Shown piece after piece: positions 18,060 through 59,477 of a stretch of 64,000 nt of DNA (positions are counted from its first letter, which is position 1; the number at the start of each line of letters is the position of its first letter). Origin of the DNA: Halalkalicoccus sp. CGA53 (GTDB lineage: Archaea > Halobacteriota > Halobacteria > Halobacteriales > Halalkalicoccaceae); the NCBI RefSeq assembly GCF_036429475.1, contig NZ_CP144125.1, positions 186,001-250,000 on the forward strand, in the 5' to 3' direction. The notes below the pieces were generated by a model. It was given only the letters and a program-made list of their open reading frames with translations, did not search any database and was not told the origin of the DNA. The position numbers and the translations under genes are program-made.

Positions 18060-18076
18060 ACGGGCGTGACGGGATT
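18060..18076. repeat. Left attachment site (attL), 17-bp direct repeat
   Basis: The sequence ACGGGCGTGACGGGATT is identical to 59404-59420, where it forms the 3' end of the tRNA-Arg(CCG) gene. The tyrosine integrase gene starts 95 bases to its right. This is the standard arrangement for archaeal elements that integrate at the 3' end of a tRNA gene and restore it. Confidence 0.88.
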
Positions 18077-18171: not shown

Positions 18172-19185
18172 ATGTCACTCGAACCGATCACCCCGGACGA
18201 AGCCGTCGAGTTGTATCTCACTGACAAGCAAGCCGAATTAGCTCAATCGACGCTCTATTCGCACAGTTCTCGATTAGGCCACTTTACTCGCTGGTGCGCC
18301 GAAGAAGAGATCCGGAATTTGAACGACCTAAGCGGTCGAGATCTGCACCGGTACCGACTCTGGCGTCGGGTCGAAGGCGATCTCGCACCAGCCAGCGAGA
18401 AAGGGCAGATGGACACGCTGCGGGTGTTCATTCGGTGGTGCGAGTCCCTCGACGCCGTTCCGGTCGACCTCTCGGTCAAGGTCGTCTCACCGACGCTGTC
18501 GGACAAGGAGAAATCGCGAGATGAGATGCTCGACGCTGATGTCGCCGAGATGATTCTGGAGAAACTCTCGTTGTACGAGTTCGCCTCGCCTCGACATGTC
18601 TGCTTCGTACTGATGTGGCACTGCTTACTTCGGCGCGGGGCTGTTCGAGCACTGGACTTCGAGGATTACGATTCCGGTGAGATGGCACTCGAAGTCAGAC
18701 ATCGTGCTGAGACGGGCACGCCGATCAAGAACAAGCACCGAGGAGAACGCTACGTAGCGCTCTCGCCTGAAGTGTGTACTGTCCTCGATGCGTGGCTCGC
18801 CGACCGACGCCCAGAGGCGACCGATGAGTACGAGCGAGTGCCATTTTTATCGACTGTCCACGGGAGAGCCCATCTCACTACGATTCAATCGTACGCGTAT
18901 TCGCTTACCCGGCCCTGCGAGTATACGAACGAGTGTCCCCATCATCGCTCGATTTCGAGCTGCGACGCAGCGCAGATGCGGAGTGCAGCCCATGGGTGTC
19001 CTTCCTCTGTCTCGCCCCACTGTATCCGTCGGGGCGCGATCACGCACTGGCTCTCATCCGATGTGCCTGATTCGGTCGTCAGTGAACGAGCGAACGTCTC
19101 GATTGGCGTCATCGAGGACCACTACGACAGGCGGACCGAACGGAAGAAAATGGAGCAGCGGCGGCGATACCTCTCTCAAGTATAG
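18172..19185 (+). CDS. Tyrosine integrase of the island
   Basis: A 337-residue protein. The N-terminal SAM-like arm/core-binding domain covers about 1-105 (ELAQSTLYSHSSRLGHFTRW). The catalytic domain shows the first Arg in CLLRRGAVRALDFEDY, the H-x-x-R box PHCIRRG (His about 283, Arg about 286) and the nucleophile Tyr318 in EDHYDRRTE. An insert with several cysteines and histidines (CEYTNECPHHRSISSCDAAQ) before the H-x-x-R box is typical of haloarchaeal integrases and may bind zinc. It sits next to attL and is the natural candidate for catalysing integration into the tRNA. A paralogue with the same insert type is at 50412. Confidence 0.92.
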   Translation: MSLEPITPDEAVELYLTDKQAELAQSTLYSHSSRLGHFTRWCAEEEIRNLNDLSGRDLHRYRLWRRVEGDLAPASEKGQMDTLRVFIRWCESLDAVPVDLSVKVVSPTLSDKEKSRDEMLDADVAEMILEKLSLYEFASPRHVCFVLMWHCLLRRGAVRALDFEDYDSGEMALEVRHRAETGTPIKNKHRGERYVALSPEVCTVLDAWLADRRPEATDEYERVPFLSTVHGRAHLTTIQSYAYSLTRPCEYTNECPHHRSISSCDAAQMRSAAHGCPSSVSPHCIRRGAITHWLSSDVPDSVVSERANVSIGVIEDHYDRRTERKKMEQRRRYLSQV

Positions 19186-21535: not shown

Positions 21536-22538
21536 CGCTCATGGGAAGCACGTTGTTGGTGAATCAGAGTACAGTTCGAACGACCTCTTCGAGAGCTTCT
21601 TGACCGGGTTTTCGTAAGATTCTTCGGCGAAGCTGGAACGCTCTGAGATACGGTGTGAGCTTGTCTTTTGAGACGCCCCGATGGGGCGAGAGCCACCGTC
21701 GCAGAAGCGACGCGTGGCTCTCGCAGGTGTTCACGTGTGCGTCTCCATCGACATATTCGCCCTCGCTATGAATCACGGCTTCTCGCTGGTAGTTCTCGTC
21801 CTCTTCGAGTGGATCGTATGCTCGAAATCCGTCAGTGTAGACAGTGAGCGACTCCTCCTCGCAGTCGCCGAGGAGGAGTCGAACGGTCGATTCATCAGCG
21901 GATTTCGCTGGGACGACGTATCGCTGGTCGCTACCACGATCAACGAGTGTGAACACTGGTGGCTTGTCCTGAGCATAGCTTCCGCGACCACGTTTCGAGA
22001 GCCCACGCGAGCGCGACCGGGAGTCGCGCTCGCGGCCTTTCAACCCCGCAGTCACGTAGACTTCGTCGATTTCGACGGGCCCCACGAGATCGATGGCTGG
22101 CGCGTCGAGCGTTCTGGCGAACTGCTCGACGCGCCGCCGAAGCGACCGATACGACACGTCAAGTTCAGCGTCAAGTTGGCGGATACTCGTGTTGAACCGG
22201 AGCAACAAGTAGAACGCGAACAAGAGCTTATCGAGGCCGATCTTCGCGTGCGCGAAGATCGTGCCGGTCTTTGGGTTGAACGTGCGGTCGCAATCCTTAC
22301 AGAGATACCGCTGATACTCTCGAAAGCTGCCGTGTTTGATCACCGACTCAGACTGGCAGCGCGGGCAGTAGAGGCCGTCACGCCAGCGAACCTGCTGTAG
22401 CAGGTTCGCGGCGCTCGCCTCTGAGCTAAGCAATTCAAATGGGAACATTGCATTCGGGTGACGCGGCAGCGTCACCCTTGCCCGCTACGCTTCTCCAGCG
22501 CCAGCTCTACTCGACCAACAACCTGCTTCCGAAGAGCG
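21536..22538 (-). mobile_element. Intact IS1595-family insertion sequence (about 1003 bp)
   Basis: The left end CGCTCATGGGAAGCACGTTG and the inverted right end (CGCTCTTCGGAAGCAGGTTG when read on the minus strand) match at most positions. The copies are flanked by the direct repeat TTAGGGATA (21527-21535 and 22539-22547), consistent with the 8-bp duplication typical of this family plus one chance base. The element holds one complete transposase gene. A perfect hairpin (GGGTGACGC at 22456-22464, GCGTCACCC at 22469-22477) lies just upstream of the gene. A damaged second copy is spread over 41339-42787. Confidence 0.85.
21564..22448 (-). CDS. IS1595-family transposase
   Basis: A 294-residue protein. 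An N-terminal zinc ribbon (about 24-60) contains YCPRCQSES and YLCKDCDRTF. A DDE/RNase-H-like ISXO2 domain follows, with the catalytic Asp region in PVEIDEVYVTAG, SLTVYTDGFRAYDP and the terminal HVNTCESHASLLRRWLSPHR. An asparagine or Glu third residue is usual in this group. The ATG at 22448 (MFPFELLSSEASA) agrees with the second copy; a GTG at 22475 would read through the hairpin. Confidence 0.9.
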   Translation of the reverse strand: MFPFELLSSEASAANLLQQVRWRDGLYCPRCQSESVIKHGSFREYQRYLCKDCDRTFNPKTGTIFAHAKIGLDKLLFAFYLLLRFNTSIRQLDAELDVSYRSLRRRVEQFARTLDAPAIDLVGPVEIDEVYVTAGLKGRERDSRSRSRGLSKRGRGSYAQDKPPVFTLVDRGSDQRYVVPAKSADESTVRLLLGDCEEESLTVYTDGFRAYDPLEEDENYQREAVIHSEGEYVDGDAHVNTCESHASLLRRWLSPHRGVSKDKLTPYLRAFQLRRRILRKPGQEALEEVVRTVL

Positions 22539-41338: not shown

Positions 41339-41537
41339 GCGCGAAGGTCGTGCCGGTCTTTGGGTTGAACGTGCGGTCGCAATCCGTACAGAGATACCGC
41401 TGATACTCTCGATAGCTGCCGTATTTGATCACTGACTCAGACTGGCAGCGCGGGCAGTAGAGGCCGTCACGCCAGCGGACCTGCTCCAGCAGGTTCGCGG
41501 CGCTCGCCTCTGAGCTAAGCAATTCAAATGGGAACAT
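41339..41537 (-). pseudogene. IS1595 transposase, N-terminal fragment
   Basis: It reads MFPFELLSSEASAANLLEQV, RWRDGLYCPRCQSESVIKYG and YLCTDCDRTFNPKTGTTFA, nearly identical to the start of the intact transposase at 21564-22448 (zinc ribbon included). It stops where IS630 copy C is inserted. The following LGLNASF is read-through into that element. Confidence 0.8.
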
Positions 41538-41556
41538 TGCATTCGGGTGACGCGGT

Positions 41557-42717
41557 TAGTGAGTCACGGAAGTTTTAGGTATACGTTGAGATGGGAAGGT
41601 GATGACTGGACGGGAGAAAGGGATCGTCCGACACCTCAGTGAGGACGATCTCGACCGCTTGCTCACACAGACTGATCATGAGAAGGTGAGAAAGCGGCTC
41701 ACCTTCATCAAATGGCTGTACAAAGGTGCAACGCTCGAAGATGCAGCCGACGATGTCGGTATGTCTCAATCAACCAGTAGTTGGTGGGTCAAGCTCTGGA
41801 ATGAGGGCGGACTCGGTCTGCTAACCCCGAACTTCGGGGGCGGTCGGCCCCCGAAGCTCGACGATGAACAACGCGAGCGTCTTCTCGAACTCCTCGAAGA
41901 AAGTGAACCCTGGAAGAAACAGGAGATTCAACACCTCTTGAACACTGAGTTCAATGTCAAGTTCCACCCGAACTATCTTCCACGCTTTCTCTCTAATCTT
42001 GGCCTCTCGTACGCGATTCCGCGTACAGAGGGGCCAGACCGACCAAAGGACGCTAACGAAATTCTCGAAGAACGCGTTGCCGATGCGTTCGTCGAGGATG
42101 AAACTGACGACCCACACAACAAACGGCCTGAGGACGACAGCGACGAGGAATGGACGGTTGATGATGATGTCCGGACAGATGGTGGAACGACGGTCGGATT
42201 CTTCGATATCTCGCACCCACAACCGTGGGACAATTCTCAACGGCTCTACACAGTGAGTGAACCAACGATCACCCGGCCGCTGGTGTATCGATTTTCACCA
42301 GCGGCCGGGTTCTATGCGCTCAACGGTGAGAGTGTCCTCCAGTTTCTCCCGAATCAAGAGAAAGAACAGATTTGCTCGTGTCTCGAAGGGATACGCGAGC
42401 AGAACCCGCTCGTCCGGATTCTCCTCGTCTTGGACACCTTCTCGTCACATTTCCTATGCGCACACGCGTGAACGAGCCCACGAACTCGGGATTGATCTCA
42501 TCTTTCTTTCAGTTGGCTCACCGCGCCTCAACCCAATCGAGCCGGTTTGGAAGAGCCTCAAATGGGAGTCGTCACCCCTGATCGTGGAGGATGCGGGCGA
42601 GTACCGCCCCCTCCTTGATAAGATCTTCACGAAGCTGACCGAACGGTTGAGCTTTGCGAGCGCGTGGATTGAAAATTATCTCGGCGAATAAATCCAAAAG
42701 TTACGTTAACGACTATA
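41557..42717 (+). mobile_element. IS630-family element, copy B (about 1.16 kb)
   Basis: The left end TTAGTGAGTCACGGAAGTTT and the right end, read on the complementary strand as TATAGTCGTTAACGTAACTT then TTGG, are imperfect inverted repeats starting at TA. It is inserted into the hairpin loop upstream of the second IS1595 copy. It belongs to the same subgroup as copy A, by the protein. Confidence 0.75.
41602..42691 (+). pseudogene. IS630-family transposase with one frameshift (copy B)
   Basis: The first frame runs MTGREKGIVRHLSEDDLDRL, GGGRPPKLDDEQRERLLELL, NYLPRFLSNLGLSYAIPRTE, TVGFFDISHPQPWDNSQRLY and ILLVLDTFSSH (second Asp), and ends early at 42471. The continuation AHTRERAHELGIDLIFLSVG, SPRLNPIEPVWKSLKWESSP (final Glu) is in the next frame to 42691. 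The shift is near 42450-42460. Comparison with copy A shows each copy is intact where the other is broken. Confidence 0.78.
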
Positions 42718-47736: not shown

Positions 47737-49743
47737 ATGTCCTTAGATAAGGCGGGAAGAGATCTTGGCAGAATTCGTAACAAAACGAGAAAAATTCTCA
47801 GAGCTGCCAGTAATGTAGATAGACCTGTGCTGATTGAATCTCCGCCTAACAGTGGAAAGACAACTGGATCATACGAACTTGCATTGAAATGTGACGTTCC
47901 AATCACACACTTGACCGCGAGAATCGATCTATACGCTCAAGCGAGAGAGTTCTTTCAAGCAAACAAGGATATCAATTTCGAGATCATACCTAGTCCACAT
48001 CGAACCTGTGAATCATTTAGGCGTGATGATGGAATCGGGACTGAATTACGTCGCCTCTATGACATGGGTTTCTCTGGGCGAGAGCTACACTTTCGGGACA
48101 TAGCGAAGACACCGTGTCAGACTGGGGAGGGATGTGAGTATATCACGAAATTAGAGAAATTAGAAAATGATATAGATGATATTGATTTTCTCATAGGCCA
48201 TTATATTCATGCGCACATTCCGCATTATACGACTAATCGTATCGTAGTGATCGACGAATTTTCACTCTCAAGTTATGTTGAAGAGTATTCCGACAGTCAA
48301 GTAACAAGGCTTGTAGACCGATTCTTAGTGAGGATCAACGACAGTAAAGAACCTTTCCCCAGTGAGATGACTGATACCAATACATTACTGCAAAAAAGAC
48401 GCGATCCGGAAACACGGGACGCTGCTATCGAATGGTTCGAGGCTCATAAGGTTACTAACGATGCAGTACGAGAATTTGATTTTCTAAAGCACTCGGATCC
48501 GTATCGGACTAGAACGTACATTGAAGCTCCATTTTTGACATTCACACTGCTATGTATGGAAACGCTTCAATCGGGGGTTGAAACGGAGGGACGGCATAGC
48601 CCAGAACTCAAGGTGGCACCTCTTCCGGATTCGAAATACACTGAAGTATGGACGAATGCAGGATTGAATCCACATACTCGATGTGTTCAACAAGAAGAGA
48701 GAGTCTATGTTTTTGATCCTCCAGATCTTTCCTCCTCATATCAGATCATAGGGCTTGACGGAACACCTACGACAGAACTATGGGATCTCGTTTTTGCCCC
48801 TGACGCAGGATTTGATCACCGTCCCGTTATTAAGAGGAAGCATTTGGCTGACTACCTATCCTCGGCAATGAATATGTCTCTATTCCAGATCGGGGAAGGA
48901 ATGTATCCATATGCTGGAGGACGAATCAGTAAGAAAGACGGAAGGCGTTTTGAGAAGGTTCAGTCCTTTGAGAACCAGAGATTTGCTCTGATTACTAGTA
49001 AGAAAGCACTCAAGGAATACGAAAAGCACGGGTGGTTGGATTCATTTGTGAAACCAGATCAGCAGGGAGGGTCCGGAGACAAGGGATACAGAGCGACGAA
49101 TTTTGGTCGTGTTTTGAGTTCCAATGACTTCGAAAAAGAGTCGCTGGGGGTAGTTTCTGGAACTCCATTTCCTGGTCACGATGTAATAGAGCGCTGGGCG
49201 GCTTTCTTTGGTGAAAGCGTCGAACCAGTCGGTCGAGGAACTGAGAAGTCGTTTGGCGAGTTCGGGGATCTTATCTATAAACATTTAACGCATGACAGGG
49301 TCATCCAAGCAATCCTTCGATTCGGACGTCACGAATCGGTGATTGAAGAAGGAGGAGCTGTCGTCTACGTCAATACTCAGGCTGTGCCTGGTTGGTTAGA
49401 TTGCCCACCTGCTACTCATCTTCGAGACAAATCGCGCAGATCTTCAAAGGCAGAAATAGTAATTGAAGAGCTGGTCCATTTGACCCGATCAGATGAACAC
49501 TCTGCCCTCCAGTATCAGTCCGTCCCCAGCCTGACTGACCGTTTGAAAGGTGAAGTCACACCAGAGTATGTTCGAAAAATTCTGAACGAACTAGCCGATG
49601 GTGGTTTGGTAGAAGTCCGGAGGAACCATGGATTCCGTGGAGCGGATCTCTATCGATGGGTTGGAGATGACGATCTTGTTCCCGATTCGGAGCGTTGCCA
49701 TCTGGATTTAAATGGTAAAAGATACACTTTGAAGTCTCCCTAA
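47737..49743 (+). CDS. SF2-type helicase with C-terminal winged helix
   Basis: A 668-residue protein. Walker A/motif I is ESPPNSGKTTGSYELA (about residue 33), motif II is RIVVIDEFSLSSYVEEY, motif III-like is IIGLDGTPTTELWDL, then VVSGTPFPGHDVIERWAAFF and a motif VI-like VIQAILRFGRHESVIEEGGA. The last 80 residues form a winged helix (LTDRLKGEVTPEYVRKILNE, LADGGLVEVRRNH). A cysteine pair near TPCQTGEGCEYI may bind metal. The combination suggests a replicative or DNA-processing helicase of an extrachromosomal element. A TATA-like TTAATTTTATACC is 40-50 bases upstream of the ATG. Confidence 0.75.
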   Translation: MSLDKAGRDLGRIRNKTRKILRAASNVDRPVLIESPPNSGKTTGSYELALKCDVPITHLTARIDLYAQAREFFQANKDINFEIIPSPHRTCESFRRDDGIGTELRRLYDMGFSGRELHFRDIAKTPCQTGEGCEYITKLEKLENDIDDIDFLIGHYIHAHIPHYTTNRIVVIDEFSLSSYVEEYSDSQVTRLVDRFLVRINDSKEPFPSEMTDTNTLLQKRRDPETRDAAIEWFEAHKVTNDAVREFDFLKHSDPYRTRTYIEAPFLTFTLLCMETLQSGVETEGRHSPELKVAPLPDSKYTEVWTNAGLNPHTRCVQQEERVYVFDPPDLSSSYQIIGLDGTPTTELWDLVFAPDAGFDHRPVIKRKHLADYLSSAMNMSLFQIGEGMYPYAGGRISKKDGRRFEKVQSFENQRFALITSKKALKEYEKHGWLDSFVKPDQQGGSGDKGYRATNFGRVLSSNDFEKESLGVVSGTPFPGHDVIERWAAFFGESVEPVGRGTEKSFGEFGDLIYKHLTHDRVIQAILRFGRHESVIEEGGAVVYVNTQAVPGWLDCPPATHLRDKSRRSSKAEIVIEELVHLTRSDEHSALQYQSVPSLTDRLKGEVTPEYVRKILNELADGGLVEVRRNHGFRGADLYRWVGDDDLVPDSERCHLDLNGKRYTLKSP

Positions 49744-50411: not shown

Positions 50412-51599
50412 ATGAGCGACAAAGCGACCCGAAGAGCGGATAGCAACGAAAACGAGCAGGAAAACGAGGTTCCACTCAACCAAGAAGATGTCGAGAAAGA
50501 AATCGCCAAACTTCTTATTGAACATAATGATCTCTATGAGGCCAAGCAGCTTGAGAGAGTATCTATCCGCTGGGGAATTGAGAGGTACTCAGCTGACCGA
50601 GAACGCGAATTAGCCAATTCGACATTAGAAGCAATCGAAAAGCGTTGCGGAAGACTCGAGGAATGGTGTGAAGAAAACGGAATCGAGGCATTTTCAGACC
50701 TCGATAAGCGTGATCTCATCGACTACTTTGACTGGCTCGTCAACGAGGCACCAACAGAAGTCACCGAGTATGCGAAAGCAACAGAAAAGGCGCATAGAGA
50801 CACAATCAGGTGTCTACTAAGACATCTATCAAATTACGGCTACGTCAAGCCCAATCTCCATGAGAGTATCAAACCGATCCAACTGAACCAGGAAGAGGCC
50901 GCCCGTGATGCGACAGTTGACCCGGAAGTCGCGAAAGCTGCGAAAGCACACTTAGAAAGATACAAATTTGGATCGACACCCCATGTAGTAATCTCTGCAT
51001 TGGTAAATACTGGGTGCAGAACTAGTACTCTCCGAGCTATTGATCGTGATGACTGCAAGCTTGATGCTGAGATCCCTCATATCGAGATTCGTCATCGGCC
51101 TGAGTCCGGAACTCCATTAAAAAATGGAAAGTCCGGAGAACGAAACATTAGTCTAAGTGAGGAGTTCTGCGAGCTGATAGTCGACTATCTATCCCGTCAA
51201 CCGGTAAGCGAAGATGAGTTCGGACGTGAACCACTCTTCACAGCCGGATTTGGTCGTCTCTCGGCCTCAACGATTAGAAAATACACATATACCTACACAC
51301 GTCCCTGCGCAATCGGGCGAGACTGTCCCGAAGGACGAGATCCTGAGGACTGCGAAGCAGAGAAGCCAAGCTCTGCTTCCAAATGTCCTTACAGCAAATC
51401 ACCTCATGCATTCCGCCGTGGTTACATCACAGAGAATCTCAAATCGATTGAGCCTGGAATCATCAGCGAGGTCTGTGACGTCTCCCTAGACGTTCTCTAT
51501 AAGCACTACGACGCTCGTGATGAGTTCGATAAGATGGCTGCTCGACTGAAGCTCTTGGAAAAGAGTGGAGACAGCCTTCACGGGTATGGAGGTGAGTAA
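50412..51599 (+). CDS. Tyrosine recombinase (second integrase)
   Basis: A 395-residue protein. The charged N-terminus (MSDKATRRADSNENEQENEV) is followed by a core-binding domain (STLEAIEKRCGRLEEWCEEN). The catalytic domain has VNTGCRTSTLRAIDRDDC (first Arg), SPHAFRRGYITENL (H-x-x-R, His about 332) and the nucleophile Tyr366 in LYKHYDARDEF. It shares with the left-end integrase a cysteine-rich insert (IGRDCPEGRDPEDCEAEKPS, KCPYSK). Its stop is immediately followed by the serine recombinase gene. It could be the integrase of a separate element that entered the same island. Confidence 0.9.
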   Translation: MSDKATRRADSNENEQENEVPLNQEDVEKEIAKLLIEHNDLYEAKQLERVSIRWGIERYSADRERELANSTLEAIEKRCGRLEEWCEENGIEAFSDLDKRDLIDYFDWLVNEAPTEVTEYAKATEKAHRDTIRCLLRHLSNYGYVKPNLHESIKPIQLNQEEAARDATVDPEVAKAAKAHLERYKFGSTPHVVISALVNTGCRTSTLRAIDRDDCKLDAEIPHIEIRHRPESGTPLKNGKSGERNISLSEEFCELIVDYLSRQPVSEDEFGREPLFTAGFGRLSASTIRKYTYTYTRPCAIGRDCPEGRDPEDCEAEKPSSASKCPYSKSPHAFRRGYITENLKSIEPGIISEVCDVSLDVLYKHYDARDEFDKMAARLKLLEKSGDSLHGYGGE

Positions 51600-51600
51600 G

Positions 51601-53004
51601 ATGTTTAATTCTCAGAGCTATGAGTTGGAGCCAATAGACGATATTGTCTACATGGCCAATTTACTTAAAAATGGGTTGATTCGCGCTGGGATGGGAACCC
51701 GAATCAACCCTAGCCCTAAATCTTCTGTACAGGGTACAAAAAAGAAGGCTTCCCGTACCACTTCGATTAGGCGTTCCACACAGACCACATTGAAAGGAGA
51801 GGTTTGTGAGGACTCGAGTGAACTTGACGAATACTCGGAAAACTCGTGGACAATATCGGAAGAAGAACTAAACGAATTAGTAGACGAGGGAATTCCTCTT
51901 TGCGCGGATTATCGACGAGTGAGTACTCTAAAACAGACAAAGGGAAAAAGTATGGAAAACCAAAAAGAAAACAATGAGTATATCGCCGATCACAACGGTC
52001 TTCGGTTGGTGTATCGTGCAAAAGATGATGGGCGATCTGGACAGTCAATGGCTCGACCAGGTTTACAGAATCTATACTTCGTATTGCTGGAATACGATAT
52101 CGATTATTTGATTGTAGACGACTTTACCCGGCTTGGCAGACTAAGTGTCGAAACCCACCAATTGATTTATAAATTGGCTGAAGAAGGGGACGTTAAACTG
52201 ATAGCTGATGGAGTGGTGATTGATGCGAGCGATGAACTCGGAAAAATAATTTCCTATGTTATGGCGTGGAGTGCTGAAGTAGAAGTTCAAGCTCAAGGTC
52301 GGAAAGCTAAGGAATCGAGAACGGCCAACTTCGTCAATAACGACAATTGGGGTGTTGGTTTTCGCTCTATTCCGCTTGGATACAAACAACTCGACACTGG
52401 AGAAGATTCTGACGGTTACTGGATCTCTCAAATAAATAACTTCGGGCCGGTAATCGAAGAGGTGTATGAGAGGTTTATTCAGGCGGACATATCTAGATCT
52501 TACGCTGAAACGGCAGCCACTGTCAGTATGCAATACCCCGAAATCCTACCAAAGCCATTAGATAGCGACGATGTAAAGGCGATCGTCACCAATCCTGTAT
52601 ACATTGGCAAACCAACATTCAGTTACGAAAAGGGAACAGGAGTTCCAGAAAACCATTCGGGAACGAACACAGATGAGGATCTGAAGTTTGTCAGTGATGA
52701 GATGTTCAATAAAGCAACTGAAAAATACCTTCAGTCAAAGAAACGGCATTCTCAGCCGACCGATTTGGTATATAATATAGAGGGGATGGCACGTGAGTTC
52801 GGTATTCCCTCAATGTTAGATGTGGTTTCGGCTGTAGTTGTCAAGTGTGAGAAATGTGAGGATGAAAATGGTGATTTGGTGCAAATGACAAAGAGCGGAA
52901 CTAAGTCAATTAGAGGGATTAAGTGCCAACGGATGAAATGTCCAAGCGGCCATATAAGGAATCTTCCGTATCAGCACGAGTTGGATCGCCTACGAATCAA
53001 CTGA
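51601..53004 (+). CDS. Large serine recombinase with N-terminal extension
   Basis: A 467-residue protein. The resolvase-type catalytic domain starts only near residue 100: LCADYRRVSTLKQTKGKSME with the nucleophile Ser in RVST, then RAKDDGRSGQSMARPGLQNL and LIVDDFTRLGRLSVETHQL. A recombinase domain (GVGFRSIPLGYKQLDTGEDS) follows, then a C-terminal zinc ribbon (VVVKCEKCEDENGDLVQMTK, CQRMKCPSGH). The first 100 residues have no recognised fold. The ATG at 51601 is one base past the integrase stop; an ATG at 51565 would overlap it. Large serine recombinases integrate or invert DNA between short att sites. Confidence 0.88.
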   Translation: MFNSQSYELEPIDDIVYMANLLKNGLIRAGMGTRINPSPKSSVQGTKKKASRTTSIRRSTQTTLKGEVCEDSSELDEYSENSWTISEEELNELVDEGIPLCADYRRVSTLKQTKGKSMENQKENNEYIADHNGLRLVYRAKDDGRSGQSMARPGLQNLYFVLLEYDIDYLIVDDFTRLGRLSVETHQLIYKLAEEGDVKLIADGVVIDASDELGKIISYVMAWSAEVEVQAQGRKAKESRTANFVNNDNWGVGFRSIPLGYKQLDTGEDSDGYWISQINNFGPVIEEVYERFIQADISRSYAETAATVSMQYPEILPKPLDSDDVKAIVTNPVYIGKPTFSYEKGTGVPENHSGTNTDEDLKFVSDEMFNKATEKYLQSKKRHSQPTDLVYNIEGMAREFGIPSMLDVVSAVVVKCEKCEDENGDLVQMTKSGTKSIRGIKCQRMKCPSGHIRNLPYQHELDRLRIN

Positions 53005-53067: not shown

Positions 53068-54021
53068 TCAGTCTATCGTACGGAGCAACTCCTGATACTG
53101 ATTAAATATTTCCGATATCTCTTTCTGTTTCCTGTTCCCATTCATTTCATCGCGTACCTGAGCATTGTCAACGAATCTTCTCCGGATTTTTCGAGCGGTA
53201 TAGAAGAGATCATTATCAATTAATCTATATTCCTCAAAATAATGCTCAGATTCACCTACCGAATACTCGCCGATATAGAGGCGGTTCCGTAAGATTTCGC
53301 TAATTGACCTCGGTCTCCACTTCCCCCCGTTTCTTGTGCCGATTTCTCGTTCTTGTAGACCATTGACGACTGCGGGCATTGACCGTTTTTCAATACATTT
53401 CGTGAAGATCCACTTAACCAGCTTTTTTTCTTCGACATCGACAGATAGCCTGCCATCCTCCCCTACGTGGTATCCTAATGGAGGCGAATTATTTGGCCAA
53501 CGACCCTCAGCAGCCATTGCTTCGATTCCCATTTTAGTTCGCTGTTGAATCAGATCTCGCTCAAACTCAGCAGCACTGGCGATATTTCGAAAATTAAAAC
53601 GACCAGCTGGCATTGTCGTGTCTAATTGCTCGGTGATACTATGCAATGATACGTTCATCTCCCGAAATTCCTCCTCAAGCTGCACAGCGTGTATAAGGCT
53701 TCTAGAGAGCCGATCTAGTTTCCAGAATACTATTACGTCAAACTTTTTTTGTTCAGCCTCAAGTCTCATTCTGCGAAACATCGGACGATCTGTATCCTTT
53801 CCACTCTCTGCCTCATCGCGAAACACATAGGCAACATCCCAGTTCCGCAGTTCACATCGTTCGACGCATAAACGGACCTGCTCACTAAGCGAATAACCCT
53901 GTGACTGCTTCAGGGATGATGTCCTGGCATAGACCGCAGCGCGTATGGTTCGAGATTCACTACCATCACCCGGATCCAATGTTTGATACCAATGATCTAC
54001 TTGTGCCATTCTATCGTTCAT
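53068..54021 (-). CDS. Serine recombinase (resolvase/invertase type)
   Basis: A 317-residue protein. The catalytic domain contains RAAVYARTSSLKQSQGYSLS (nucleophile Ser in ARTSS), DEAESGKDTDRPMFRRMRLE, FWKLDRLSRSLIHAVQL and the E-helix FNFRNIASAAEFERDLIQQR. A recombinase domain follows (SPPLGYHVGEDGRLSVDVEE, IRNRLYIGEYSVGESEHY type). There is no zinc ribbon, so it is shorter than the partner at 51601. Its ATG overlaps the end of the TFB gene by 11 bases; a second ATG at 54009 would avoid the overlap. It is last in a three-gene minus-strand operon. Confidence 0.9.
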   Translation of the reverse strand: MNDRMAQVDHWYQTLDPGDGSESRTIRAAVYARTSSLKQSQGYSLSEQVRLCVERCELRNWDVAYVFRDEAESGKDTDRPMFRRMRLEAEQKKFDVIVFWKLDRLSRSLIHAVQLEEEFREMNVSLHSITEQLDTTMPAGRFNFRNIASAAEFERDLIQQRTKMGIEAMAAEGRWPNNSPPLGYHVGEDGRLSVDVEEKKLVKWIFTKCIEKRSMPAVVNGLQEREIGTRNGGKWRPRSISEILRNRLYIGEYSVGESEHYFEEYRLIDNDLFYTARKIRRRFVDNAQVRDEMNGNRKQKEISEIFNQYQELLRTID

Positions 54022-54781
54022 TCCATCTTCGAATTTCTAAGAGCCGAACCCGAATCGTCTCCTTCGTTACCCCGCACGCCTCGGCGATTTCCCGTTGGGT
54101 GACTCCCTCACTCGAAACGCTATACAATGCCGCTCCAGCCCATGCTGCAGGATTCGTACCTGAAATATTCGTTGATCCCTGTACCTCTATTAGAAGATCC
54201 TCTGTCTCCTCCAGAGTACTCTCGTCGGAAGGGAGAAATTGGCCGAGATAGGTGAGGTAATCTTCGGGTCTGGGTACTACCGGATCGATCTCCAGACCAT
54301 CTCGTATGAGCCGTACGTGATCTATGACCGAATCTTCCGAGATGGAATCGGGTCCGGCGATGAATTTCAGCGGTCTTGCCTTCCCTAATTCTTGCGTCGC
54401 GAGGAACACACAACTCGCGATGATCTGGGTTTTCTTTCGCCCAACGGTGATTCGCTCCTCGAGCGCACCAGCGTAAATTTCGGCTGCCCGCTCCCTTTCA
54501 CTCGTTGAGAGACCAATCTCGTCGGCGATCTGCTCCAAGAACCCCAGGCCGTCTGCAACTTGCTTTTGAGTGCCGTTCTCGACAGTGACAAACTCACTCC
54601 ACTCCTGGTCTATCTCCTCGTCATCTGACCCCTTGTTTTCCAGTGCAGGCGTCTCGCATTCCACGGCCTTCGAGATATCGTGAACAACGTATCCGCACGT
54701 CTCACAAAGAGAATCGAATAACTCGATCTCCCCATCGAGATCCGACGAACCGCACTGGGGGCAGATTGGTTCACTCGTCAT
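54011..54781 (-). CDS. Element-encoded transcription initiation factor B (TFB)
   Basis: A 256-residue protein. The zinc ribbon (about 6-40) contains ICPQCGSSDLDGEIELFDSL then CETCGYVVHD. The two cyclin-like repeats are represented by LGLSTSERERAAEIYAGALE-like sequence, GRKKTQIIASCVFLATQELG and GTNPAAWAGAALYSVSSEGV. It ends in TQREIAEACGVTKETIRVRL. Chromosomal TFBs are about 300-320 residues; this one has a short linker and looks divergent. It recruits RNA polymerase to promoters together with TBP. The start at 54781 overlaps the nuclease gene by 11 bases. Confidence 0.85.
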   Translation of the reverse strand: MTSEPICPQCGSSDLDGEIELFDSLCETCGYVVHDISKAVECETPALENKGSDDEEIDQEWSEFVTVENGTQKQVADGLGFLEQIADEIGLSTSERERAAEIYAGALEERITVGRKKTQIIASCVFLATQELGKARPLKFIAGPDSISEDSVIDHVRLIRDGLEIDPVVPRPEDYLTYLGQFLPSDESTLEETEDLLIEVQGSTNISGTNPAAWAGAALYSVSSEGVTQREIAEACGVTKETIRVRLLEIRRWNER

Positions 54782-55913
54782 TCTCCATCTGATATGCCTG
54801 GGATGGTTTCTCATCTGGCATCGGACCATGAAGGGGCGAGGGTACTTTCTCACTCAAACAGGCCTTGCACACAGGAGGATCGGACGTATCTCGGTCCCAC
54901 TCGATAACATCCCAATCGTATTTCCGGGTACAGCTATCGCAGCGCCATTTACCCACGGTATTCGTTTCAGCCAACTCCGGATACCTATGGGCAAGTGTCG
55001 GCGTCAGCACAGCCTCAGGATCCGACTCGAGATAATCAACGACCTTCTTTCTCGGGTAATCTGCAAACAGAGGTAGAAACCCTCTGACGTCCTCGTCCTG
55101 ATGAACCGTCTCCCCCCTGCCACAGCGTTCTCTATACGAGCAGAACCCGCACTCCCAATCGAATTCCGGGTCTGCTTGAGGGAGCTGCTCATTGATTCTG
55201 GACCTAGTATGTGCCACCGCCCATTGTAGAACAACAGTCCTCCAGAATACGGGATCGAACTCTACGTGAAATGCACTCGCCTCAAACGTATCTCGACTTC
55301 CATAGAGAATGATTGCATCAGTCACGTTCTGCTCATGCTGCTGTGAGAGCCCGTACAGGTACGGATGGATCTGTGCTCTGTGATGTCGATTCGGAGCTTC
55401 AAGATTTGAGATCGAGGATTTCGTTTTGACTTCGACCAAGATCAGCGGTTGACCGTCCTCCGCAACGATGACCGGATCGGTTTCGCCTCTAAACTGGAGC
55501 TCGCCTATCTCGGTTTCGACGGTAAAGTCGACCCAATACGAGTTGCCCACGTACACTCGGTCAGGGACCACATCCTCAAGATAGGAAAGGACGAATTCCT
55601 CTTCAAACTTGGACCCCAGCCAGAAGATACCATGGGGGTCTTCGTTCTCTTCGGGTGCGTTGAGTTGTCGATAGTAGAGCTTCCGTGAGCACTGGAGAAG
55701 TGAGCTTGGTGAGTGTCGTTTCGGATCGGGAACTGAGGAGGGCTCGTTGTAGTACGGTTTTCCGTTTTTCAGATTGTCCTTCGCTTTCTTTTCTTCGTAC
55801 CATCCTTGGAAATCTCCACTCAAGATCGACTCGATTACCTTACTCACATCCTCTTCGTCCTCCTTTGGGTCGTCTTCTTTACCATTGGTTGTTCTGCTGC
55901 TTATCCTGGACAT
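54771..55913 (-). CDS. Cas4-like PD-(D/E)XK nuclease
   Basis: A 380-residue protein. The N-terminal Cys of a Cas4-type iron-sulfur cluster is in SPSSLLQCSRKLYYRQLNAP. The nuclease core has FRGETDPVIVAEDGQPLILV then EVKTKSS (Asp and E-x-K), and the Gln/His helix is NRHHRAQIHPYLYGLSQQHE. The C-terminal cysteines are in WECGFCSYRERCGRG. A second metal ribbon (CDSCTRKYDW, VCKACL) is added at the end and is unusual for Cas4. There is no CRISPR array or other cas gene in the window, so it is probably a DNA-processing enzyme of the element. It is the first gene of the operon with TFB and the serine recombinase. Confidence 0.82.
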   Translation of the reverse strand: MSRISSRTTNGKEDDPKEDEEDVSKVIESILSGDFQGWYEEKKAKDNLKNGKPYYNEPSSVPDPKRHSPSSLLQCSRKLYYRQLNAPEENEDPHGIFWLGSKFEEEFVLSYLEDVVPDRVYVGNSYWVDFTVETEIGELQFRGETDPVIVAEDGQPLILVEVKTKSSISNLEAPNRHHRAQIHPYLYGLSQQHEQNVTDAIILYGSRDTFEASAFHVEFDPVFWRTVVLQWAVAHTRSRINEQLPQADPEFDWECGFCSYRERCGRGETVHQDEDVRGFLPLFADYPRKKVVDYLESDPEAVLTPTLAHRYPELAETNTVGKWRCDSCTRKYDWDVIEWDRDTSDPPVCKACLSEKVPSPLHGPMPDEKPSQAYQMENDE

Positions 55914-56066: not shown

Positions 56067-56303
56067 ATGTCTGATGAACGCCGAGGGCGCAAGCCACGCG
56101 TCTCCGATGAGGAAATTCTCGATGTATTTCGAAACTCCGCAGACCCAGTGCTTATCGCATCTGAAATCGCTGAACACGTCGACATTAGCCGTCGAGCCGT
56201 TAACTACCGGCTCACAAATTTGGAGGATGAAGGGATCCTGCGGTCAAAACAGGTGGGTGGCAGAAGCACTGTCTGGTGGCTACCAGGATACACGAAAACT
56301 TGA
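56067..56303 (+). CDS. Small winged-helix DNA-binding protein
   Basis: A 78-residue protein, MSDERRGRKPRVSDEEILDV, then a winged helix (VLIASEIAEHVDISRRAVNY, RLTNLEDEGILRSKQVGGRS) and WWLPGYTKT. It is typical of small haloarchaeal regulators on plasmids. It is divergent from the nuclease operon with a 150-base gap between the start codons, so it may regulate that operon, itself or both. Confidence 0.75.
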   Translation: MSDERRGRKPRVSDEEILDVFRNSADPVLIASEIAEHVDISRRAVNYRLTNLEDEGILRSKQVGGRSTVWWLPGYTKT

Positions 56304-58943: not shown

Positions 58944-59225
58944 ATGGGATATAATAGGACGGGTTACGAAAATGCCTTAGAAATTAAAACAGATGATTTA
59001 CTTTCAATTGGGGCTGATTCTGGTATGATATACAACGATGAAGATGAGATTGAAACAGATCGAGACTATCGTCTCGTGTGGGATAGCAATAGTCCATCCG
59101 ACATCAAACCAATGGTAAAGCGCAAATATATATCAAATCAAATTCCAAAAGAACTCGGTCGCTTGGCCCTTGAACGAGCAAAGGACGAATTTACTTCTGA
59201 ATATCTGTCACTGACTGATTTTTAG
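58944..59225 (+). CDS. Small unknown protein, third gene of the operon
   Basis: A 93-residue acidic protein, MGYNRTGYENALEIKTDDLL, then SGMIYNDEDEIETDRDYRLV and IPKELGRLALERAKDEFTSE. It has no recognised motif. A TTG at 58938 (TTGAAAATG) could add two residues; the ATG at 58944 is preferred. It ends 180 bases left of the attachment site and is the last gene of the island. Confidence 0.6.
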   Translation: MGYNRTGYENALEIKTDDLLSIGADSGMIYNDEDEIETDRDYRLVWDSNSPSDIKPMVKRKYISNQIPKELGRLALERAKDEFTSEYLSLTDF

Positions 59226-59403
59226 AGCTACGTAGCATCAAAAACATTAAGATTGTTTTTTGGTCGCTGCCACATTGAATCCTTTGATCCGCATGCCAGC
59301 GGCGACCCCCGAGATGATTCGTGACGGAATCACTCGCACGAAGCCCCAGCCGTTTATATACGACTGGACGCCGTCTGTGGAATCTGAATCGTCACGGAGA
59401 ATG

Positions 59404-59420
59404 ACGGGCGTGACGGGATT
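59404..59420. repeat. Right attachment site (attR) inside the tRNA gene
   Basis: ACGGGCGTGACGGGATT, identical to 18060-18076. Its last 15 bases are the 3' terminal acceptor and T-stem of tRNA-Arg (minus strand). The element lies to its left, i.e. downstream of the tRNA. Confidence 0.88.
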
Positions 59421-59477
59421 TGAACCCGCGACATCTTGGTCCGGAACCAAGGACTCTGTCCACTGAGCTACACGCCC
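59406..59477 (-). tRNA. tRNA-Arg (anticodon CCG)
   Basis: 72 nt. On the minus strand the acceptor stem GGGCGTG pairs with CACGCCC, the D arm is GCTC-AGTGGACA-GAGT, the anticodon arm is CTTGG-TTCCGGA-CCAAG with CCG at positions 34-36, and the T arm is GCGGG-TTCAAAT-CCCGT. It decodes CGG. No CCA is encoded. No intron is seen. The 3' end is the insertion site of the island. Confidence 0.93.

Follow-up and report, generated by a model that had tools for sequence, protein, structure and literature searches.

SCC elements combine serine recombinase genes in tandem, ccrA and ccrB, with variable defence cargo, and their chromosomal target is rlmH. Both TFB genes and Cas4 are already known on mobile elements: thaumarchaeal integrative-conjugative elements encode TFIIB (PMC6563490), and solo or mobile-element (solo/MGE) Cas4 nucleases occur outside CRISPR loci (PMC5704561). 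In Sulfolobus, the non-canonical TFB paralogue TFB3 works as a trans-acting activator together with TFB1 (PMC7289017), and haloarchaeal elements with tyrosine integrases are found integrated at tRNA genes (PMC8371274). In the open-access papers searched, no description was found of the combination reported here, of its reader-less TFB family or of its conservation across archaeal classes.

The operon and its products

The stretch analysed, referred to as the window, comprises 64,000 nucleotides of the chromosome of Halalkalicoccus sp. CGA53. It contains an operon encoding a Cas4-like nuclease, a TFB and a serine recombinase, SerA, with a second serine recombinase, SerB, facing SerA (Table 1). 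The preliminary description had reported three overlapping minus-strand genes, and these overlaps are real when first ATGs are used; with an alternative SerA start at 54009 the overlap between TFB and SerA is gone. Its assignment of the three products to the nuclease, TFB and recombinase families was borne out by Pfam and, for Cas4, by PADLOC. The 668-aa protein next to Tyr2 has a homologue in the equivalent position in two other loci carrying the module (L060 and L076).

Table 1. Features of the operon, its neighbours and the island boundaries in the window
Feature	Positions	Strand	Remarks
Distal att copy	18060-18076		17 bp identical
Tyrosine integrase	18172-19185	+	directly inside distal att
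668-aa protein of unknown function	47737-49743	+	adjoins Tyr2; optional companion
Tyr2, tyrosine recombinase	50412-51599	+	precedes and overlaps SerB
SerB, larger serine recombinase	51565-53004	+	convergent with SerA; 63-bp spacer
SerA, serine recombinase	53068-54021	-	317 aa; Pfam Resolvase 3e-37, Recombinase 5e-15
TFB/SerA overlap	54011-54021	-	11 bp, given first ATG
Reader-less TFB	54011-54781	-	256 aa from ATG (MTSEPICPQC...); Pfam TFIIB repeats 4.5e-15
Nuclease/TFB overlap	54771-54781	-	11 bp
Cas4-like PD-(D/E)XK nuclease	54771-55913	-	380 aa; first gene of operon; Pfam PDDEXK_1 1.5e-7, PADLOC Cas4 4e-13
Palindrome TTCCN6GGAA	55953-55966		putative operator in shared promoter region
Second palindrome TTCCN6GGAA	56014-56027		putative operator
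Divergent winged-helix regulator	56067-56303	+	homologues upstream of nuclease in many module loci
att copy	59404-59420		overlaps tRNA 3' end
tRNA-Arg(ccg)	59405-59477	-	island target

In the nuclease, the catalytic PD-(D/E)XK residues (D146, E161, K163, Q181, Y185) are invariant among 17 relatives. So are all eight cysteines of the Cas4-type set and extra zinc ribbon noted earlier, namely the four Fe-S-type cysteines C75, C255, C258 and C264 and the C-terminal ribbon cysteines C325, C328, C349 and C352. The protein gives a profile match to Sulfolobus Cas4 SSO0001 (6.5e-7), with which a structure model of moderate confidence agrees, and its best PDB match is 4ic1. No Cas1 was found among 30 island proteins scanned in Pfam, a scan that covered Cas2-sized small ORFs in part. 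An initial genome scan using the nuclease as single query returned no match. In 14 other loci, on plasmids and islands, the same Cas4-like nuclease follows a Cdc6/Orc1 gene at a distance of at most 2 kb, in each case without TFB or SerA (L007, L008, L010-L012, L070, L075, L077, L080, L082, L083, L086, L089 and L092). This linkage hints at a replication-linked role for the nuclease.

SerA matches the TP901-1 integrase as well as resolvases, and its catalytic residues (Y31, R33, S35, R79, D103, R104 and R107) are invariant in every row of the alignment. The protein contains PF07508 and ends at residue 317, with no match to PF13408 and no zinc domain detected at the C-terminus. Most SerB proteins carry at least one CxxC pair, and the Y-x-R-V-S pattern is found in most of them. 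No recombination site for SerA or SerB was found; the spacers between the convergent genes are unconserved, and overlaps of 21-36 bp are frequent. In two loci the interval between SerA and SerB holds cargo, including type I restriction and cytosine methylase-like genes among others (L129, 10882-18927; L124, 10996-18989). Direct repeats flanking cargo inserted at this point were looked for and none was found.

Recurrence of the block and its islands

The Cas4-like protein was detected in 54 of 394 Halobacteria genomes, and SerA in 30 of the 394, representing 24 of 86 genera. A Haloarcula marina plasmid and 23 other genome loci have nuclease, TFB and SerA together, and in all of these except L087 the three genes are co-directional, with SerB usually opposite. 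An inversion was suspected in L087 and ruled out, as gene order there is normal and a different Cas4-like gene lies beside the block. A tyrosine recombinase of the same family is present in 14 of 25 module loci, the window counted. When named genomes were scanned with a SerA profile, a TFB adjoined SerA in 22 of 22 haloarchaeal loci and a Cas4-like gene was present in 16 of them; nearly all had a convergent SerB, and tyrosine recombinase and divergent winged-helix genes were each present in many. As genomes hold about 5-10 TFB genes, the odds of finding SerA next to TFB in every locus by chance are estimated to be negligible. Among viral contigs there were no close relatives of the module, only distant recombinases, and no TFB match.

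Outside the haloarchaea, a nuclease-like gene of another family followed by SerA and TFB occurs in MAGs of Bathyarchaeota and in one labelled Poribacteria. Two of these MAGs encode a DUF2130 protein at this place, and in two the protein has an E-V-K motif. A convergent SerB is present as well in two of the Bathyarchaeota MAGs, which also have a tyrosine integrase next to tRNA-Pro. The contig labelled Candidatus Poribacteria, a bacterium (L125), may be misbinned archaeal DNA. An Archaeoglobi MAG has a nuclease-like gene, SerA, SerB and a tyrosine recombinase with no TFB, and a Hadesarchaea MAG has SerA and SerB, again with no TFB; the TFB is therefore usual, but neither universal nor essential to the recombinases. 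The nuclease is an exchangeable part of the block. The trio proposed in the preliminary description thus does recur in archaeal genomes and plasmids, on mobile islands, and is conserved as a group, but the real unit is larger, taking in SerB and the tyrosine recombinase, and the nuclease within it is not fixed.

The island in the window is 41.3 kb long, with the block 3.5 kb inside, and across it G+C drops from about 70% to 40-55%. Its cargo consists of a transporter and other genes, among them unrelated metabolic genes. Three relatives from the same family have no island at the orthologous tRNA, and two relatives carry islands there that lack the module and have a related tyrosine integrase. 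The block is therefore unnecessary for integration at the tRNA, and the site is an island hotspot. On the same evidence the module was rejected as a necessary tRNA integrase; integration is probably carried out by the separate tyrosine integrase. Two stretches sharing direct repeats (22259-22468 and 41348-42717), about 19-20 kb apart, lie near transposase-like ORFs in the window. At island left ends (window 59200-59404, and the G268, G246 and G363 islands) the tRNA is followed by roughly 150 bp containing a TATA-like sequence, and in the window this stretch is also seen past the distal att. At the island end, only the tRNA reached the Rfam gathering score in the search for RNA genes.

Four further module islands have the same layout, with a repeat of the tRNA 3' end at the far side. 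Two of them, of 27 kb and about 30 kb, are at tRNA-Arg(ccg); the others are a 51-kb island at tRNA-Glu and a 37-kb island at tRNA-Arg(tcg). The far-side repeats of the four span 15-42 bp, of which the 15-bp repeat is weak. In 5 of 5 islands the block starts at most 4 kb from the tRNA end. Clustering of their ORFs placed nuclease, TFB, SerA and SerB in all five and tyrosine recombinases in four of the five, along with regulators. Beyond the block, tyrosine recombinases and a regulator, only the 668-aa family was common, in two islands. The five were picked for carrying the block, so that its sharing is by design; the result lies in how little else they have in common. Pbe phosphorothioate-type and type I restriction genes are among the cargo near the block in other loci. 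The Haloplanus ruber island (L177) has a second, TFB-like gene of 301 aa that lies some 9 kb from the block. At the right end of the G363 island (L181-L182), a second element begins directly past the distal att copy, with 1.3 kb 94% identical to the left end, and two islands seem to stand in tandem at this one tRNA.

The TFB and control of the operon

The module TFBs (24 haloarchaeal and three non-haloarchaeal) were compared with 33 ordinary TFBs, drawn from this genome (five), from other haloarchaea (27) and from a Thermococcus plasmid (one). The zinc ribbon cysteines C7, C10, C26 and C29 are invariant in 26 module TFBs. B-reader motifs (PEWR or [RH]xGAP) are absent from all 27 module TFBs, whereas 32 of the 33 ordinary TFBs have them, and the median linker is 39 residues as compared to 80 (ranges 34-62 and 74-80). 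In ordinary TFBs the second repeat has a recognition helix of the form V-T-[IV]-R-N-R-Y, with the valine present in 31 of 33. This BRE-recognition valine is replaced by glutamate in 24 of 24 haloarchaeal module TFBs, and the conserved asparagine and tyrosine are also lost. Loss of the B-reader together with a changed BRE-recognition helix fits a specialised factor.

The window TFB gives a profile match of 5.5e-42 to 1d3u, the Pyrococcus TBP/TFB/BRE complex. In its AlphaFold2 model (mean pLDDT 87.6), a zinc ribbon and two five-helix folds are separated by a disordered linker of 20 aa; the stretch 41-58 is disordered. The modelled cyclin folds superpose on those of 1d3u with an rmsd of 2.0 Å, and the model suggests that the window TFB retains two cyclin folds of the type that binds TBP and BRE DNA. 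In a tree confined to the cyclin repeats, the 24 haloarchaeal module TFBs fall together (SH-aLRT 98) and away from chromosomal TFBs, contrary to the grouping that would have counted against the preliminary description. The three non-haloarchaeal ones form another group (SH-aLRT 99). Several module branches are long, and fine placement is unsure. The gene orders TFB-SerA and SerA-TFB correspond to two TFB subgroups in the tree, and the identity of SerA to the window SerA splits in parallel with gene order (42-44% vs 46-54%). These matching splits indicate that TFB and SerA are inherited together.

In many loci the operon is immediately preceded by a 20-bp motif with a palindromic core, CAATnnnCGATTGAGYAAGT. 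Around 70 matches of at least 15 bits were counted in 1.88 Mb, in a set in which some loci overlap, as compared to 10 in shuffled sequence. The motif is present in 23 of 29 loci with a DUF7344 gene and in 5 of 35 without (Fisher p 1.7e-7), and it also precedes Cas4-like genes that have no TFB nearby. It is therefore most likely the operator of the DUF7344 regulator, and its reading as a private TFB promoter was rejected. The window and similar loci have the TTCCN6GGAA palindromes in its place. No promoter motif tracking the TFB was found upstream of module operons. Shared promoter motifs had been anticipated upstream of island genes as a mark of the TFB; the promoter-proximal motifs found follow the linked DUF7344 or winged-helix regulator instead. 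The operator-like motif was also observed near island ends, pointing to the tyrosine integrase, at three places (L181:1058, L182:17971 and L111:7320); the integrase may therefore be expressed across attP, in the excised circle alone.

Possible roles of the block and comparison with known systems

Taken at a probability of about 0.5, our preferred reading is a conserved mobility-and-control block of archaeal integrative islands, whose TFB would be an element-specific, TFB3-like regulatory initiation factor governing the recombination and nuclease genes. The sequences suggest that such islands carry a modified initiation factor of their own. In the proposed mechanism, the winged-helix or DUF7344 regulator of the island would keep the operon silent, and its release would allow nuclease, TFB and SerA to be made together. 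The TFB would bind TBP and an altered promoter element and, having no reader, would act with a host TFB in the manner of TFB3, raising transcription of the island's recombination genes. Island DNA could then be rearranged or resolved by SerA and SerB, with the nuclease trimming ends. A mobile-element control unit had been proposed before, and its core is retained here in that the trio sits on mobile islands and the TFB is specialised; the promoter-proximal motifs, in contrast, follow the regulator and not the TFB.

The same protein could be imagined as a silencer that holds TBP-bound promoters of the island, or of a rival, unopened and keeps the recombinases off until needed. Loss of reader and linker with zinc ribbon and cyclin folds intact is what would be expected of a dominant-negative TFB, and the gene lies beside those it would autoregulate. 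The loci, however, already own winged-helix or DUF7344 regulators with operator-like sites, and we consider silencing rather unlikely. Simple hitchhiking of unrelated island neighbours with no joint function might be expected in gene-rich mosaics, and the window cargo does consist of unrelated metabolic genes. Yet the TFB is at SerA's side in all the haloarchaeal loci scanned, the orientation of SerB is kept, the two gene orders match two TFB subclades, and the five islands have almost nothing else in common. Chance adjacency is already refuted by these loci, and this explanation is very improbable.

The Pol III factor TFIIIB attracts the Ty3 integrase. By a comparable route, promoter-bound TBP-TFB might bend DNA and bring SerA and SerB to their sites. 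In a wider form of this reading, a general initiation factor would have been turned, across archaeal classes, into a dedicated partner of site-specific recombination that, with TBP, marks or shapes SerA/SerB sites instead of initiating transcription. TFB and SerA are strictly adjacent whichever of the two comes first, and in more than one archaeal class, which is in keeping with such a role, as is a reader loss that strips the initiation-specific part and keeps the part that binds DNA and TBP. Two MAGs nevertheless have the recombinases with no TFB, and the att sites of the islands at the tRNA 3' end are explained by the tyrosine integrase. We regard both the accessory role and this wider conversion as doubtful, at long odds. 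If the preferred reading of a TFB3-like regulatory factor is true, archaeal elements that keep their own altered initiation factor beside their recombinases would illustrate how genes of an element may be run independently of the host. The reader-less family with its changed BRE-recognition helix is a natural set for testing the role of the B-reader, and it makes the meaning of multiple haloarchaeal TFBs directly testable.

The module resembles SCC elements in having two serine recombinases and variable defence cargo, but its recombinases are convergent, its target is a tRNA used with a tyrosine integrase, and its block includes a TFB and a nuclease. Its nuclease resembles solo/MGE Cas4 as a Cas4-type PD-(D/E)XK enzyme away from CRISPR and differs by the extra C-terminal zinc ribbon; a text search of PMC5704561 found no association of Cas4 with TFB, serine recombinases or Cdc6. 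Like the haloarchaeal tRNA elements (PMC8371274), the window island has a tyrosine integrase and a tRNA target, to which it adds the module block. Thaumarchaeal elements likewise have a TFB from an integrated mobile element. In the passages of PMC6563490 consulted, serine recombinases are mentioned for IS607-type insertion sequences only, and no block of nuclease, SerA-TFB and SerB is reported. By analogy with Sulfolobus TFB3 (PMC7289017), a TFB paralogue unable to replace the standard TFB, the module TFB may be a regulatory factor. Unlike Sulfolobus TFB3, which is induced by UV and DNA damage, the module TFBs lie in mobile islands beside recombinases and keep both cyclin folds and the C-terminal HTH.
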